Shown here piece after piece: positions 37,893-45,620 of a stretch of 64,000 nucleotides of DNA; within the stretch, counting starts at the first letter, position 1; every line of letters begins with the position of its first letter. Below the pieces are notes generated by a model. It had not been told where the DNA came from. It ran no database searches and worked only from the letters and a program-made list of their open reading frames with translations. Position numbers and translations under genes: made by a program. This stretch comes from Anaerolineaceae bacterium. GTDB taxonomy: Bacteria; Chloroflexota; Anaerolineae; Anaerolineales; Anaerolineaceae. Location of the stretch: assembly GCA_030653365.1 (NCBI GenBank), contig JAURZL010000005.1, forward strand, positions 185,469 through 249,468, written 5' to 3'.

Positions 37893-38513
37893 TTAGAAAA
37901 TGGGTGGCGTGATCACCGAGATCCAGGAAGCTTCCCGATCGACTGATGCACACATTAATTTTGTCAGTTGGTCGCCGTGGAAGGAGATCGAATCACCGGT
38001 TCTCAGAATATATTCTTCCTCATCCAGCCCAATCAAAACCTCACCGGAGAGGACATATATAAACTCCTCCGTTTCACTGCGCAATTTACGGGCGATATTT
38101 CCTGTGCCAGGAGAAGCGCGTCCAATGATGGCTTCCAGTTTGGTGCTCAGGTTGGGGACCAGAAGCTGATATTCCAAACCGGATGGCGGTAAGATTAAAC
38201 GCGGACGACAACCCGCGCGGACTACTGGTGAGTAAGACTTGGTGCGATCCACATCCTCGCAGGGTTCAGGATCGATATGCTCGTTAATATCTTCGAAATC
38301 GACAGGTGGTTCTTCTAAAAAGTGCATCATTGGTACATCTAATGCTTCAGCGATTCGCCGTAAGGAATCAATGGATACATTGGATGTTCCATGTTCGACC
38401 TGGCTGAGAAATGATGCGGTTAAATCGGTGCGCCGAGCGACTTCTCGTAAACTCAAACCACGTTCTTTCCGTAATTTGTTGAGTCGTTTGCCGGGGTTGT
38501 GATCTGGGGCCAT
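37893..38513 (-). CDS. XRE-family regulator with cupin domain
   Basis: RGLSLREVARRTDLTASFLSQVEHGTSNVSIDSLRRIAEALDVPMMHFLEE + cupin VLSGEVLIGLDEEEYILRTGDSISFHGDQ. Confidence 0.9.
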   Translation of the reverse strand: MAPDHNPGKRLNKLRKERGLSLREVARRTDLTASFLSQVEHGTSNVSIDSLRRIAEALDVPMMHFLEEPPVDFEDINEHIDPEPCEDVDRTKSYSPVVRAGCRPRLILPPSGLEYQLLVPNLSTKLEAIIGRASPGTGNIARKLRSETEEFIYVLSGEVLIGLDEEEYILRTGDSISFHGDQLTKLMCASVDREASWISVITPPIF

Positions 38514-38843: not shown

Positions 38844-39107
38844 TCATTCTTCTTTTTTATGGAGCATTTGTTTGATCTCGTCCAGCCGTTTTTCCAAAAA
38901 AGATTTCTCGTGTTCTAAGTCAACGATATCATCCTGTGGTGAGTAGGATGGTGCATTTCTTCCCCATCCAAACCAACCACGGCCAGACCAACCTCGACGA
39001 CCAAAACCACGACCATATTTCACGTCGGATCGATTATCACGGCAGGGACCAAACCCTCGGCCGCGAGGACCATCTCCATAAGGACCAGAACCATCAAAAC
39101 CAGGCAT
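38844..39107 (-). CDS. DUF5320-type Gly/Arg-rich protein with C-terminal coiled coil
   Basis: MPGFDGSGPYGDGPRGRGFGPC...YSPQDDIVDLEHEKSFLEKRLDEIKQML. Confidence 0.8.
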   Translation of the reverse strand: MPGFDGSGPYGDGPRGRGFGPCRDNRSDVKYGRGFGRRGWSGRGWFGWGRNAPSYSPQDDIVDLEHEKSFLEKRLDEIKQMLHKKEE

Positions 39108-39148: not shown

Positions 39149-39544
39149 TTACTCAGAATGATTTGATTTGAACAAAAATAACAATTGAGCGATGGATTTT
39201 TGGTGTAACTCTAATTGTTGTTTCCAATTGATTAATGCTTGTATGCCGAGGTCAGTAATGGTATAAGTTCTCCTGGGTGGGCCCTGAGTCTCAAATGTGT
39301 CCCATGCAGATTGAATCCATTCCAGACCCTCCAACTCACGCAGCGTACGGTATACCACGCTGGGATGGATAGTGCCCATGTTCATCTGTTCCAGATCATT
39401 CAAAAGCGTATATCCATGCCGTTCTTTTTGACTGATCAATAGTAAAAGTGTTGGTTCTAACAAAGAAATGGTAAGTGGGGTGTGTTGGCTATGATGTTCA
39501 CTATGATGACCATTCATCGCCCATCCTCTACGTCTCCTCGGCAT
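39149..39544 (-). CDS. PadR-family transcriptional regulator
   Basis: LLLISQKERHGYTLLNDLEQMNMGTIHPSVVYRTLRELEGLEWIQSAWDT...GPPRRTYTITDLG. Confidence 0.88.
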   Translation of the reverse strand: MPRRRRGWAMNGHHSEHHSQHTPLTISLLEPTLLLLISQKERHGYTLLNDLEQMNMGTIHPSVVYRTLRELEGLEWIQSAWDTFETQGPPRRTYTITDLGIQALINWKQQLELHQKSIAQLLFLFKSNHSE

Positions 39545-39671
39545 AAAAAACCTCCATCAATCAACAATATTGTATCAAACTATTCTCTAATAATCAATAG
39601 ATAATAAAGGAATACGTCACATAATTATCATCAAAATTGACGTCATTTATCATTATAATAAGACAAAACCA

Positions 39672-39699
39672 TTGTATTTTATCAATAATGTACTATAAT
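39672..39699 (+). promoter_or_regulatory. Candidate sigma70-type promoter of XRE-cupin-NifX gene
   Basis: TTGTAT - 16 nt - TATAAT; followed by palindrome GGTATGAAATATACC (39703-39717). Confidence 0.5.
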
Positions 39700-39736
39700 A
39701 TTGGTATGAAATATACCATCCTCATGGATAACCCAT

Positions 39737-40786
39737 ATGAACTTGTTATTTGATCAGAATGAAAACTTAACAGACCAGACACCTGCTGAAATGTTGGTAG
39801 GGCGTAATCTTCGTGATTTACGCAACCGGCGTGGGCTCTCATTGCGAGCTTTAGCAGAACGCAGTGGTTTGAATGTCAACACATTGAGTCTGGTAGAGAA
39901 TGGGAAATCCTCTCCTTCGGTAGGCACATTGCAACAATTAGCTCAAGCATTGGACGTACCAATCACCACTTTTTTTGAAACTGAGCAAGTTGAAAAACGG
40001 GTGGTTTTTACCCCAGCTGAACAAAGACCTTTTGCTGCATTTGGTAGCACGCAGATGCAGAATCTGGGAAAAGACCTGGCGGGCAAAGTAGTTCAGCCAT
40101 TTGTGGTTACATTGCAGCCAGGAATGGGAAGTGGTGACCGCATGATCGTACATACGGGGCATGAGTTTGTTTATTGTCTCGAGGGGAGTATTCATTATCA
40201 AATTGGCCAGGAGGAATTCAATTTACAACGAGGGGACAGTATTGTGTTTGAAGCGCATCTTCCACATTGTTGGGAAAACAAAGGGGAGGAAGTTGCACAA
40301 ATTTTGTTAACACTATATCCAACTGATGAACGGGAAGAGCCTGGAGGCAGGCACTTTTCACTTGATTACTTACAAAAGGAGATATCTATGAAGATCGCAG
40401 TAATAACCAGTGACGGAAAAACCATCGACCAACATTTCGGGAGGGCACCTTACTATCTTGTGGTGACTATCGAAGAAGGAAAAGTAACACAACAGGAATT
40501 GCGCGACAAAATGGGTCACAGACATTTTGTTGCACAACATGAGGAAAATGACCATGGTAGTGCAGGTCATGGCATGGATGCGGGATCCCATAAGAAACAT
40601 GCCAGCATGGCAGAAACCATTTCTGATTGCAAAGCCTTGATTTGTGGTGGAATGGGAATGGGTGCATATGAGAGCATGAGACAGTTCAATATTAAACCAA
40701 TCGTTACCGATTTGAGTGACATCGAGATTGCTGTGCAGGCTTTTATCGATGGAAAATTAATCGATCATACAGAACTTTTACATTAA
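39737..40786 (+). CDS. XRE HTH - cupin - NifX/dinitrogenase Fe-Mo cofactor-binding-like fusion protein
   Basis: HTH (LRDLRNRRGLSLRALAERSGLNVNTLSLVENGKSSPSVGTL), cupin (HEFVYCLEGSIHYQIGQEEFNLQRGDSIVFEAHLPHCWEN), then from residue 218 MKIAVITSDGKTIDQHFGRAPYYLVVTIEEGK...GGMGMGAYESMRQFNIKPIVTDL. Confidence 0.9.
   Translation: MNLLFDQNENLTDQTPAEMLVGRNLRDLRNRRGLSLRALAERSGLNVNTLSLVENGKSSPSVGTLQQLAQALDVPITTFFETEQVEKRVVFTPAEQRPFAAFGSTQMQNLGKDLAGKVVQPFVVTLQPGMGSGDRMIVHTGHEFVYCLEGSIHYQIGQEEFNLQRGDSIVFEAHLPHCWENKGEEVAQILLTLYPTDEREEPGGRHFSLDYLQKEISMKIAVITSDGKTIDQHFGRAPYYLVVTIEEGKVTQQELRDKMGHRHFVAQHEENDHGSAGHGMDAGSHKKHASMAETISDCKALICGGMGMGAYESMRQFNIKPIVTDLSDIEIAVQAFIDGKLIDHTELLH
40377..40390 (+). promoter_or_regulatory. 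Internal in-frame ribosome-binding site and ATG at cupin/NifX junction
   Basis: AAGGAG ATATCT ATG; ATG at 40388 is in frame (codon 218) and is the canonical N-terminus of NifX-family proteins. Confidence 0.6.
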
Positions 40787-40910: not shown

Positions 40911-41360
40911 GTGTATAAAAAAATATTATACGAGGATTTAGTAATAATTTTTGAGCTTCATCGTAAATACCTGGCTGGTGAGGAAGGTGGCGTATGCGCA
41001 GAATTGAGCGGAGGGGACTTCTATGGAACCGATTTTTCCAATGTCAATCTGGCTGGGGCGAACCTGGAAGCTTCCAGCTTTAAACGTTCCAATATTATGG
41101 GTATTAACCTGGAAGGTGCTAACCTGAAAGACGCCAATATGAAACGCGCTTGTTTCGCTAGTGCCAATTTACAAAAAGCGAATATGGAAGGTACATTCTT
41201 AAAAGGTTGTAATTTTGATGAAGCTGACCTTCGAGGAACCAATTTAAAAGGCGCCAGCATGGAAGATGCCTTTTTTGGTAATGCAAAATATGACAATGAA
41301 ACAATTTGGCCGGATGGTTTTGATCCTGTTAAAGCCGGGGCTATATTGATCGATAAATAG
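40911..41360 (+). CDS. Pentapeptide-repeat protein
   Basis: Repeated A(D/N)LXX units: ANLEASSFKRSNIMGINLEGANLKDANMKRACFASANLQKANMEG...ADLRGTNLKGASMEDA. Confidence 0.93.
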   Translation: MYKKILYEDLVIIFELHRKYLAGEEGGVCAELSGGDFYGTDFSNVNLAGANLEASSFKRSNIMGINLEGANLKDANMKRACFASANLQKANMEGTFLKGCNFDEADLRGTNLKGASMEDAFFGNAKYDNETIWPDGFDPVKAGAILIDK

Positions 41361-41390: not shown

Positions 41391-41729
41391 ATGAAAATCC
41401 TTATTTCATCGCAGGGGCAAAATTCAGATGGTCCGATCGACGATCGTTTTGGTCGCTGCCCATGGCTAATTAAATATGATACAGAAACAAACCAGATCGA
41501 AGCACTTGAAAACCCGGGATTTCGTCAATCGGGTGGAGCAGGCATCGCGGCTGCACAATTTGTTATTGATCAGGCGGCTGATGTCGTAATCAGTGGTGAT
41601 TTTGGTCCGCATGCAGCTCGTGCATTCGAAGCAAGTGATACCAAAATGTGTATTTTTAATGGTGATATTTCTACAGTTCAACAAGCAGTTGACAGTTTTC
41701 TGCAGGGAAAATTACCTGTTTTCCAGTAG
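41391..41729 (+). CDS. NifB/NifX-family metallocluster-binding protein
   Basis: GPIDDRFGRCPWLIKYDTETNQIEALENPGFRQSGGAGIAAAQFVIDQAADVVISGDFGPHAARAFEAS. Confidence 0.92.
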   Translation: MKILISSQGQNSDGPIDDRFGRCPWLIKYDTETNQIEALENPGFRQSGGAGIAAAQFVIDQAADVVISGDFGPHAARAFEASDTKMCIFNGDISTVQQAVDSFLQGKLPVFQ

Positions 41730-41746
41730 AACAGAATTAGAATTCT

Positions 41747-42616
41747 ATGAAAATTGCGGTGGCAAGTGGGAAAGGGGGGACGGGTAAGACAATGGTGGCA
41801 ACCAGTCTGGCACTCAGTTTGGTTGAAACAAACCAGGTAAAATTGTTGGATTGTGATGTGGAAGCACCGAATGCCCATTTATTTTTGCATCCGACCTTTA
41901 CACAGGAAGTTCCAGCCATCATTCGAATTCCAAAAATTGACCCCGAGCGGTGCACACTGTGTGGTAAATGTGTCGAAGTATGTCAGTTTAATGCTTTGGT
42001 GAAAGTTGGAAAAACCATCATGGTGTTTCCGCAACTCTGCCATGGTTGTGGCAGCTGCACCTGGAATTGTCCAGAAGGGGCTATTGAAGAGATCCCCAAT
42101 CCCATCGGCTTGATTGAAAAGGGACGTGCTTTTGCAGGAATCGATTTTACCCATGGAAAATTGACTCTGAGCGAACCGATGGCGACCCCGATCATTCGAC
42201 AGTTGAAAAAACTTGAGAAGTCAACAAATGGGACAATCACTATCTTAGATTCTCCACCAGGAGCCTCCTGTTCGGTCGTTGAAACAGTGCGGGGGGTTGA
42301 CTTTGTCATACTGGTGACAGAACCAACCCCATTTGGCTTACATGATCTCAAACAGATGTTGGGTATTCTGGAAGACATGCAGATTCGTTATGGGGTTGTG
42401 ATCAATCGAGAAGGAATCGGTAATGCCGAGGTGGATCGGTATTTAGAGCAAAGAGGAATACCTGTTTTAATGAGAATACCGTTTGATAAAGAAATCGCCA
42501 GAGGAATTGCCGCAGGAGAACCGCTGATAGCAATCAATCCGATTTACCGTGGAAAGTTTGTGAATTTATATCAAAAAATAAAACAAATAACTGAAAAAAG
42601 TGACGGCAGGTCATGA
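41747..42616 (+). CDS. MinD-superfamily P-loop ATPase with inserted ferredoxin domain
   Basis: IAVASGKGGTGKTMVATSLAL; CTLCGKCVEVCQFNAL and CHGCGSCTWNCPEGAI. Confidence 0.94.
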   Translation: MKIAVASGKGGTGKTMVATSLALSLVETNQVKLLDCDVEAPNAHLFLHPTFTQEVPAIIRIPKIDPERCTLCGKCVEVCQFNALVKVGKTIMVFPQLCHGCGSCTWNCPEGAIEEIPNPIGLIEKGRAFAGIDFTHGKLTLSEPMATPIIRQLKKLEKSTNGTITILDSPPGASCSVVETVRGVDFVILVTEPTPFGLHDLKQMLGILEDMQIRYGVVINREGIGNAEVDRYLEQRGIPVLMRIPFDKEIARGIAAGEPLIAINPIYRGKFVNLYQKIKQITEKSDGRS

Positions 42617-43548
42617 CACAACAAAGAGCAAAACAACTTGTCGTATTAAGTGGAAAAGGTGGCACGGGTAAAACCAGTTTGAGTGCAGCCTTAGCCTATG
42701 AGTGCACTCATGCTGGGATGAATTACAAAACCATTTTTGTTGATGCTGATGTTGATGCTGCTAATCTAAGTCTGGTACTTGAAGCTCAGGTGGCTGAACA
42801 ACACGAGTTCTGGGGTAGCTCGCAAGCTGAAATTGATATCCAAAAATGTACTGGTTGTGGATCCTGTGAATCGGTTTGCCGCTATGATGCCATTTTCCCC
42901 CATCCCGATATTCCAGGAGTGAATTGGGTCGACCCAATTGCCTGTGATGGTTGCGCAGCCTGTGTGTATGCGTGTCCGGAAGAAGCCATCAGCATGATTC
43001 AACAACAGGAAGGTTTCTGGTTTCAATCCAGAACGCCTTATGGCGATTTTTTTCATGCAGAGTTATTCCCCGGCAGGGAAAATTCTGGCAAATTGGTCAC
43101 GTTAATCAGACAAAACGCACGATTAGCAGCAGATGATTATCATGCCCAACTGGTTGTGATCGATGGACCTCCAGGGATTGGGTGCCCTGTAATCTCAGCC
43201 TGTGCAGGAACAGACCTGGGCCTCATCGTTACTGAACCGGGACAGGCTGGGATGCATGATCTTCAACGAGTTCTGGGAACACTCGGGCACTTTAGGATTC
43301 CAACCATTATCTGTATAAATAAAGCAGATCTGTATCCGCAAGGTACAAATGAAATTTATGAGTTTGCTGAAAAACAGGGAATTGAAGTTGTTGGGGAAAT
43401 TCCATTTGATGAGAACATCCCTTTATCCATGCTGCAAGGTGTACCTATTCAGGTTCTATATCCGGAATCTCCAGCAGCTATAGCAATTCATGAAATCTGG
43501 CAACAGACCGTTAGTAAACTGATTCAATATGTGAAGCAAAATGAATAA
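42613..43548 (+). CDS. MinD-superfamily P-loop ATPase with inserted ferredoxin domain (paralogue)
   Basis: LVVLSGKGGTGKTSLSAALAYE; CTGCGSCESVCRYDAI and CDGCAACVYACPEEAI; overlaps upstream stop by 4 nt. Confidence 0.94.
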   Translation: MTQQRAKQLVVLSGKGGTGKTSLSAALAYECTHAGMNYKTIFVDADVDAANLSLVLEAQVAEQHEFWGSSQAEIDIQKCTGCGSCESVCRYDAIFPHPDIPGVNWVDPIACDGCAACVYACPEEAISMIQQQEGFWFQSRTPYGDFFHAELFPGRENSGKLVTLIRQNARLAADDYHAQLVVIDGPPGIGCPVISACAGTDLGLIVTEPGQAGMHDLQRVLGTLGHFRIPTIICINKADLYPQGTNEIYEFAEKQGIEVVGEIPFDENIPLSMLQGVPIQVLYPESPAAIAIHEIWQQTVSKLIQYVKQNE

Positions 43549-43837
43549 ACAAGAATTAGAAATTGCTGTGATAGAAAAATTAACCGAAGTGATTGATCCT
43601 GAGACTGGCGTGGATGTGGTCAAAATGCGATTGATTGAGGACATCCACATTGATGAAGGTGGAAAAATAACCTATGTGTTCCGCCCTTCTTCCCCGTTAT
43701 GTCCCATTGCGGTTCCGTTGGCTCTGGCGATCATTGACGCAATCAAAGAAGTACCTGGCATATCAGGGCAAGCAATCACTGTTAAAGATTATGTTCAGGC
43801 AGATCAATTGAATGAAATATTAAAAACAATTGTGTAA
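43541..43837 (+). CDS. MIP18/DUF59-family iron-sulfur assembly-type protein
   Basis: IAVIEKLTEVIDPETGVDVVKMRLIEDIHIDEGGKITYVFRPSSPLCPIAVPLALAI. Confidence 0.88.
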   Translation: MNKQELEIAVIEKLTEVIDPETGVDVVKMRLIEDIHIDEGGKITYVFRPSSPLCPIAVPLALAIIDAIKEVPGISGQAITVKDYVQADQLNEILKTIV

Positions 43838-43880
43838 TTGTGAAAAACGAAATATTTTGAAGATCATTCAGGAGAATGAC

Positions 43881-44327
43881 ATGGAATCAAAAATAAAAAT
43901 TGGAATCATTATTTGTGATCGATATCGAACATGTGCTGGGGGAAAATGTTTTCGGGCAATGAAAAACCGGGAAGGTGCATTCAGTGTTTATGAAGGAAAG
44001 GACGTGGAACTGGTTGGATATACAACCTGTGATGGATGTCCCGGTGGAAATATTGAATACACAGCAGATGAAATGATGCGAAATGGTGCTGAAGTTATTC
44101 ATTTTGCAACAGGCATGCTGGTTGGATACCCACCCTGTCCCTATATTGATACATTTATGAAATTTCTAGAGCAGAAGTTTAAAATAAAAGTGGTTCCTGG
44201 TACTCATCCCATTCCACAGAAATATCTGGATACCCATTTACAGCTCGGATCGTGGAACGAGATCAAATGGCAAGCCCTGTTGGAAGCAACCATGGCCACT
44301 GAGGAAATTCGAATTGCATATGATTAG
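43881..44327 (+). CDS. CGGC-domain protein (putative metal binding)
   Basis: IGIIICDRYRTCAGGKCFRAMKNREGAF...VELVGYTTCDGCPGGNIEYTADEM. Confidence 0.88.
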   Translation: MESKIKIGIIICDRYRTCAGGKCFRAMKNREGAFSVYEGKDVELVGYTTCDGCPGGNIEYTADEMMRNGAEVIHFATGMLVGYPPCPYIDTFMKFLEQKFKIKVVPGTHPIPQKYLDTHLQLGSWNEIKWQALLEATMATEEIRIAYD

Positions 44328-44378
44328 TAACTGAAGATCCACCAATAACCATTGGTCTATCATCACAAAAGAGGAAAA

Positions 44379-45107
44379 ATGAATCTTTACGATTTGCTTC
44401 TAAAATCTCTCCCGCGAGAACCCATACCGGTCAAAAAAGTGATTGTAGGCGTACATTGGACATTGGTATGCAGTACTGATTGTGGTTTATCATCGACATT
44501 AACGAATTGTGGACCACATGGACACGCAAAAATGCAGGATGTTGGCAAGCTTGAAGAAAAAACAACTCAACAACTGGCTGAATGGATTCTTTCGGATAAT
44601 TTTTTGGAAGCAAGTGTTGGTATGGCAGCCATTAATTCATTAATTCCTGTAGATGAAAAGAAATTAGTCCAAAAAAACGCATCCGAGGTAATTGCCAAAG
44701 AAGGCGAAGGAAAAAATGTTACCATCGTTGGGCATTTTCCGTTTGTTGAGCAGATTAAATCCATCCCCAAGTATTGCTGGGTAATTGAAAAGAAACCATA
44801 TGGCGATGATTTTCCTGAAGAGGCTGCCGAAGAATATATTCCCCAGTCGGATATTGTTGCCATCACCGGGACTGCGATCATCAATCATTCCATGGAAAAA
44901 TTACTTTCTTTATGCAAAAAAGATGCAACCGTTATGATATTGGGACCATCAACACCACTTCTTCCAATTTTGTTTGATTATGGGATTTCGTTCCTTTCAG
45001 GTGCCAGGGTTGGTGATCAAAAAGCAGCAATCAATACAATTGTGCAGGGAGCTTCATTACCCCAGGTAAAGGGGATAAATCTGGTGACAATGGTAAAAAC
45101 AAATTAA
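44379..45107 (+). CDS. DUF364-family protein (putative heavy-metal chelation domain)
   Basis: ASVGMAAINSLIP; NVTIVGHFPFVEQIKSIPKYCWVIEKKPYGDDFPEEAAEEYIPQSDIVAITGTAIINHSMEKLL; MILGPSTPLLPILFDYGISFLSGA. Confidence 0.85.
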   Translation: MNLYDLLLKSLPREPIPVKKVIVGVHWTLVCSTDCGLSSTLTNCGPHGHAKMQDVGKLEEKTTQQLAEWILSDNFLEASVGMAAINSLIPVDEKKLVQKNASEVIAKEGEGKNVTIVGHFPFVEQIKSIPKYCWVIEKKPYGDDFPEEAAEEYIPQSDIVAITGTAIINHSMEKLLSLCKKDATVMILGPSTPLLPILFDYGISFLSGARVGDQKAAINTIVQGASLPQVKGINLVTMVKTN

Positions 45108-45128: not shown

Positions 45129-45620
45129 ATGAAACATAATCCAAAAAATAAAAACTGGGTTGTAATATCCGAAGATTTGGATCAAACCACATCTTTGATC
45201 CAAAACAATACTCCAGCCTCGGACGAACACGATCAATCATTTTCTGAATTAGCCCGCCAATTAATTAAGCGCAAAGAAAACATGGGTTTCTTTCCTGCAC
45301 CGGATGCAAGTGGGAATATTACAGGTTGGTGTGGCGATACGATGCAAATTCAATTGATGTTGGATGGAAAAATAATAAAAGGTGCCAGATTTATGACTGA
45401 TGGATGTGGAGCAACGATTGCCTGTGGGAGTATGCTCACAAAAATGGTGCAATCAAAACCTCTCTCAGAGGCAATGAAAATATCCCCGGATGATCTTTTA
45501 TCTGAGTTGATCAGCATTCCAGAGGATCATGAACATTGTCTTTCTTTGGCCGTTTCAACACTTCGCGCTGCAGTAAATCATGCGATGGAAATTACAAGTG
45601 GTGCCAGCCTTAAAAAATAA
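45129..45620 (+). CDS. NifU-like/TSCPD iron-sulfur scaffold-type protein
   Basis: GWCGDTMQIQLMLDGKIIKGARFMTDGCGATIACGSMLTKMVQ...EDHEHCLSLAVSTLRAAVNHA. Confidence 0.85.
   Translation: MKHNPKNKNWVVISEDLDQTTSLIQNNTPASDEHDQSFSELARQLIKRKENMGFFPAPDASGNITGWCGDTMQIQLMLDGKIIKGARFMTDGCGATIACGSMLTKMVQSKPLSEAMKISPDDLLSELISIPEDHEHCLSLAVSTLRAAVNHAMEITSGASLKK

Follow-up and report, generated by a model that had tools for sequence, protein, structure and literature searches.

A stretch of 64,000 nucleotides from an Anaerolineaceae bacterium (hereafter the window) contains a gene in which a DNA-binding regulator runs in frame into a NifX-type domain, which raises the question of whether this gene yields one protein or two and what a regulator would do with such a domain. 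The frame occupies positions 39737-40786 of the plus strand and encodes 349 amino acids without interruption in the ORF listing. Its parts are as follows (window positions, strand, feature, basis):

39737..40786, +, full-length XRE-cupin-NifX regulator, the long product of 349 aa (ORF and Pfam; in-frame fusion in about 34 family genomes)
39809..39970, +, HTH_3 DNA-binding domain, residues 25-78 (Pfam)
40103..40309, +, Cupin_2 domain, residues 123-191 (Pfam)
40355..40387, +, linker, residues 207-217, which carries the putative internal ribosome-binding site and is of low model confidence (AlphaFold model, codon periodicity)
40412..40747, +, Nitro_FeMo-Co domain, residues 226-337 (Pfam)
40517-40600, +, His-rich loop in the Nitro_FeMo-Co domain, about residues 261-288

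Domain architecture of the fusion protein

Pfam detects HTH_3 with 57.6 bits (cut-off 23), Cupin_2 with 62.6 bits (cut-off 27.2) and Nitro_FeMo-Co (PF02579) with 62.6 bits (gathering cut-off 26.3) in the 349-aa protein, and HTH_3 followed by Cupin_2 in a single chain is the architecture of an XRE-cupin one-component regulator. The single uninterrupted frame of XRE, cupin and NifX put forward in the original prediction is borne out by the ORF coordinates together with these three domains. The domain names given there (HTH_3, Cupin_2 and Nitro_FeMo-Co) were also right, but the designation NifX does not hold in the strict sense, the match to TIGR02663 reaching 24 bits, below the curated cut-off of 112. 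In the AlphaFold model (mean pLDDT 76.5) the protein consists of three folded parts, and the low-confidence stretches are the linker (203-215) and the His-rich loop (263-283).

The architecture resembles that of PuuR-like XRE-cupin regulators, which likewise have an N-terminal HTH_3 and a C-terminal Cupin_2 domain. PuuR is the best NCBIfam match (residues 18-196), and a solved XRE-cupin example, 1y9q, is the best sequence match in the PDB. However, with 88.2 bits against the curated cut-off of 211 for the PuuR equivalog (NF007408), the fusion protein stays far below that family, and it differs from PuuR in its extra NifX-type domain and in the probable internal gene described below.

Distribution and origin of the fusion

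In a census of 147 genomes of the family, about 34 carry the fusion in full length and in frame, at 52-94% identity. Among the carriers are three cultured strains, Levilinea saccharolytica KIBI-1 (L045), Anaerolinea thermolimosa IMO-1 (L055) and Leptolinea tardivitalis YMTK-2 (L058), and the complete genome of Leptolinea sp. HRD-7 (L061). Since in-frame homologues occur in other genomes, in isolates and in a complete genome, the fusion is not an artefact: a sequencing error or a binning artefact is ruled out, and the frameshift or missed stop that could have undone the original prediction is not what separates these domains. The junction is broken in five family genomes, by a stop in four and by a frameshift in one, so the fusion is not essential everywhere.

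Outside the family, no fusion was seen among 400 genomes from the phylum (E 1e-45, best candidates per genome scored). A contig labelled Thermoleophilia (Actinomycetota; L038) carries the fusion at 74% identity, probably owing to a binning error. No published description of a NifX-cupin-HTH protein was found in the literature covered, which lay largely outside subscription journals.

Anaerolineales outside the family encode the regulator and the NifX protein separately but with the gene order unchanged, with 74 to about 850 nt between the two and a start of its own for each NifX gene. A quick tree groups the fused genes within the family and requires five changes between the fused and the split state, two of them forced by well-supported branches; the tree was rooted at its midpoint, and the direction of change is a reading of it. 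Together, the gene order outside the family and the tree suggest adjacent genes, then loss of a stop, then later splits or a second fusion. One fused gene (L031) may represent a separate fusion event. An ancestral order of regulator then NifX, as well as the age and conservation of the fusion, appear to be supported by these comparisons, and the intermediate states (separate, overlapping, stop-split, fused) are all present in living relatives.

Probable internal translation start

Two further features lie inside the frame:

40376..40381, +, internal Shine-Dalgarno sequence AAGGAG, 6 nt before the internal ATG
40388..40786, +, internal in-frame gene, candidate stand-alone NifX-type protein of 132 aa, from Met218 (conserved Shine-Dalgarno sequence and start; stand-alone homologues elsewhere)

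The in-frame ATG at 40388 encodes Met218, the first residue of the NifX domain, and both Met218 and Lys219 are invariant in all 33 fused homologues of less than 90% identity that were compared. Nearly all fused homologues have a good Shine-Dalgarno sequence, with its spacing to the internal ATG kept. When synonymous codons were resampled 1000 times with each gene's own usage, the pairing energy of the internal Shine-Dalgarno sequence was -3.69 +/- 0.47 (sd) kcal/mol, as against an observed mean of -8.24 kcal/mol, and none of the 1000 resamplings matched the observed strength. At the glutamate position of the site, 28 of 30 codons are GAG (249 of 832, or 30%, elsewhere), and at the lysine position 27 of 27 are AAG (173 of 459, or 38%, elsewhere); the corresponding p-values, 4.7e-13 and 3.6e-12, are too small because the homologues share ancestry, which overstates their independence, yet the direction remains clear. 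A Shine-Dalgarno sequence at -7 or below precedes 88% of the internal starts compared with 6% of the other internal methionines of the same genes. In four homologues (L019, L021, L024, L057) the sequence persists although its frame or the encoded amino acids differ; in L024 the linker is frame-shifted (TQKGAFS-M) and the Shine-Dalgarno sequence is retained in a different frame.

These observations support selection on the internal Shine-Dalgarno sequence and start, the two being conserved, by the measure of codon resampling, beyond the constraint on the protein, as in a gene within a gene. The ORF is thus probably such a nested pair, coding for a 349-aa regulator and a 132-aa NifX-type protein. 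The frame was at first read as having a single product; the long frame is real, but the conserved internal signals point to two products, and both the 349-aa and the 132-aa protein would be made.

In the linker, third-position differences exceed the mean of those at the first two positions by a ratio of 1.49, and in the flanking folded parts the ratio is 2.1-3.7; this codon periodicity indicates that the linker is still read as protein. The frame contains nothing that would halt ribosomes starting at the upstream site. Shine-Dalgarno strength in the window is -3.1 at the long start, a weak value, as against a strong -8.7 at the internal start, and the more abundant product may therefore be the short form. 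As the 3' end of the window genome's own 16S rRNA was not found in its assembly, the anti-Shine-Dalgarno sequence was examined in relatives instead, and CCTCC is present at the 16S 3' end in 7 of 12 genomes of the family.

Candidate operator and probable autoregulation

The promoter region of the fusion gene contains the following site:

39686..39713, +, candidate operator with the core GTACTATAATATTGGTA at 39690-39706 (PWM, exact-match search, recurrence before homologues)

The core, TACTA-N6-TRGTA, is an imperfect palindrome that encloses the -10 box TATAAT (39694-39699); complementary pairs amount to 62% at the best axis, and another axis reaches 58%. Many fused genes have upstream of them the motif tGTACTATAATaTTrGTA, again with TATAAT within. 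A PWM built from 16 homologous promoters identifies this site, 23 bp upstream of the start codon, as the only one in the 64-kb window, and finds single sites before most homologous units. Exact GTACTATAATNNTRGTA occurs once in the 4.5-Mb genome, before the fusion gene. Up to two mismatches yield 16 places, compared with 50 for the reversed control; a large regulon in the window genome is ruled out by the single exact copy and these near-match counts.

The motif recurs before homologues in 20-odd genomes of the family, and exact TACTATAATNNTRGTA was found in none of 40 genomes of other families (101 relatives searched), which share the gene order. The 147 family genomes contain 40 distinct exact places. 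By our own tally, what directly follows 30 of these is a fused gene or the osmC ahead of it, an XRE-cupin paralogue lacking the fusion, or genes of the NifX/ORP kind. Given that a reversed-pattern control gave roughly 20 matches in the family genomes, the remaining ten places may be due to chance. The exact motif is present in 24 of 46 genomes with a strong match to the regulator versus 6 of 101 without one (Fisher p 6e-10).

Exact copies were also noted before PNPOx-lactate racemase, ARMT1-like, winged-helix regulator and cytochrome oxidase-type genes (L125/L168, L126/L169, L128/L164, L127) as well as before some others, and these sites are possibly chance occurrences or regulon members. In one group of relatives (L042, L045, L050, L057, L058) an OsmC-like gene is inserted between the operator and the fusion gene, and where osmC precedes the regulator, the motif site stands before osmC. 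Unfused XRE-cupin paralogues with the same promoter motif are found in L166, L133, L139, L151, L153, L154 and L051 (11448-12174), several of them sharing a conserved N-terminal SHWRESL stretch. The paralogue in L166 heads a full ORP-like operon consisting of DUF5320, Nitro_FeMo-Co, two MinD, NifU and radical SAM genes.

The location of the motif over the -10 box points to repression. Autoregulation, initially offered as conjecture, gains support from a motif that lies over the -10 box, is unique in the genome and recurs before homologues. On the evidence of these promoters, autorepression by the fusion protein appears well supported; the protein would bind the candidate operator, and the sign of control would be negative. 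Since the motif is common to the unfused XRE-cupin paralogues (L051, L133, L166), the fusion protein is a candidate binder, and the paralogues are candidates too.

Gene neighbourhood

The fusion gene is flanked by the following genes, those on the plus strand lying downstream of it:

38844..39107, -, DUF5320 protein, a neighbour of the fusion gene in many relatives too
39149..39544, -, divergent PadR-family regulator, likewise a neighbour in many relatives
40911..41360, +, pentapeptide-repeat protein, in the probable operon
41391..41729, +, second Nitro_FeMo-Co (ORP-like) protein (Pfam)
41747..42616, +, ferredoxin-MinD-like ATPase 1
42613..43548, +, ferredoxin-MinD-like ATPase 2
43541..43837, +, MIP18-type FeS_assembly_P protein
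43830..44327, +, CGGC-domain protein
44352..45107, +, DUF4213/DUF364 putative heavy-metal chelation protein
45129..45620, +, NifU_N-like scaffold protein

The NifU_N gene is followed by a ZIP transporter gene. The PadR regulator and the DUF5320 gene may constitute a further layer of control. A second XRE-cupin regulator is encoded on the minus strand (37893-38513), 1.2 kb upstream of the fusion gene; its counterparts in the close relatives L036 and L051 are 93% identical and also lie near the fusion.

The window thus contains an ORP-type protein and two MinD-like ferredoxin ATPases, the set characteristic of orp operons. MrpORP (Orp9) gave no match above cut-off in the window genome. A sigma54 promoter as in the Desulfovibrio orp operons was rejected, the best match upstream of the gene agreeing at 6 of ~10 specified positions in 39541-39740. 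The description of the gene as the head of an operon of NifX and MinD ATPases fits the window, but about half of the fused relatives lack ORP-like genes next to the regulator-NifX unit. As they are so often absent, the conserved unit comprises the operator and the pair of regulator and NifX. In two genomes in which the fusion lies elsewhere (G008 and G137), the motif stands 152 and 106 nt, respectively, before an unlinked ORP-like operon, which in G137 is headed by a stand-alone NifX. This provides independent support for control of the ORP-like genes, which in these two genomes would be exerted in trans.

Proposed mechanism and alternatives

Residues H139, E143 and H177 of the cupin, present in all 33 homologues compared, are aligned to H138, E142 and H180, the iron ligands of the Fe(II) cupin HppE, and reproduce the full His/Glu/His set of that enzyme. 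In the NifX-type part, His and Cys residues are conserved. Both domains make a metal or cluster signal plausible, and the ligand may be a metal or a metallocluster, as the original prediction conjectured. To our knowledge, the functions of the NifX/orange-protein family outside nitrogen fixation are little known, and no direct sensor role of the family there was found in the literature.

The explanation that we regard, as a whole, as probable joins a gene within a gene, operator repression, feedback through a shared ligand and a fusion of neighbours. The 5' start would give the 349-aa one-component regulator, whose XRE domain would bind the palindrome over the -10 box and repress its own promoter and the operon behind it, with the cupin (as a mononuclear metal site) and the C-terminal NifX domain reporting the ligand. 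From the internal Shine-Dalgarno sequence and the ATG at 40388, the C-terminal domain of the regulator would be translated a second time, as a free NifX-type carrier of 132 aa with identical sequence. The most likely logic is feedback: if one and the same metal or metallocluster is recognised by the carrier and by the regulator's NifX domain, expression of the carrier, of the regulator and, where present, of the ORP-like assembly operon would follow the cluster state of the pool. Such a gene could have arisen from a regulator and a NifX neighbour when the first stop was lost and the ribosome-binding site of the second gene was kept. We suggest more tentatively that the carrier, as an exact copy of the repressor's sensory domain, competes for or exchanges one cluster with it, in a homeostatic circuit that also sets the ORP-like operon; this extension is possible, though we would not presume it.

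A rather improbable alternative is that only the full-length fusion is made or matters, the internal Shine-Dalgarno sequence being a remnant from the time of the fusion or a side effect of a conserved KKE-x-x-M protein motif. The linker periodicity and the presence of the fusion in about 34 genomes do show that the long form is translated and kept. Yet the synonymous codons at the site depart strongly from those used elsewhere in these genes, and the four homologues mentioned above keep the site in other frames or with other amino acids. Moreover, the fused genes are only 49-75% identical to the window protein, a divergence over which a leftover site should have decayed. It is somewhat less improbable, but still unlikely, that the short NifX is the main product and the fusion a tolerated read-through, which would leave the regulator's NifX tail without a sensing role. 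This would agree with the strong internal site, with the unfused gene pairs, unchanged in order, of outgroups and five family genomes, and with the many XRE-cupin paralogues that work without a tail. However, loss of phase or a stop would then cost nothing, and the frame is nevertheless open and in phase across the 8-13 codon linker in about 34 of 39 classifiable family genomes.

The feedback logic has a stronger competitor, to which we give substantial though minor weight, namely that the cupin by itself perceives the signal, Fe(II)/oxygen or a small molecule as in other XRE-cupin proteins, and that the NifX parts serve only in storage or transfer. The intact, invariant His/Glu/His triad is consistent with this, as are the operators before XRE-cupin paralogues that lack a NifX tail; the retention of the fused tail, on the other hand, would be left unexplained.

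Relation to known systems

In structure, the top Foldseek match of the fusion protein is HppE (1zz6), which has the same two-domain fold and the same metal triad. HppE is an epoxidase, whereas the fusion protein has a third domain and a DNA-binding role indicated by the promoter motif. By sequence, the closest solved relative of the NifX part is MTH1175 (1eo1) of the NifX/MTH1175/orange-protein family PF02579, from which it differs in being fused to a regulator, in its His-rich loop and in falling below the NifX equivalog cut-off; the hallmark of an orange protein itself is a bound Mo-Cu sulfide cluster.

The orp operons of Desulfovibrio vulgaris encode an ORP-type protein and two MinD-like ferredoxin ATPases, and the cluster is controlled by a sigma54 activator encoded within it, DVU2106, with IHF (PMC3897727, PMC6345978). 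As there, the regulator of the window is encoded in the cluster and overlaps its own promoter; in contrast, the window has a predicted XRE repressor acting on a TATAAT promoter and no MrpORP above cut-off. Separate C-terminal products from internal in-frame starts are made alongside full-length proteins in RpnL/RpnS (PMC10327210), and the C-terminal product Cas11b is likewise translated separately from an internal start (PMC11899642). Unlike these, the pair predicted here would combine a transcriptional regulator with a metallocluster-type carrier and would stem from fused ancestral neighbours.

The conserved internal start also offers a clear natural example of a nested gene that came from the fusion of operon neighbours; its second, 132-aa protein would escape annotation pipelines. 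A regulator with a NifX domain, a mapped candidate operator and a co-regulated gene set also provide a direct route to what NifX/orange proteins bind. If both proteins are made, a single gene would supply these anaerobic bacteria with a carrier and with the switch that controls it.
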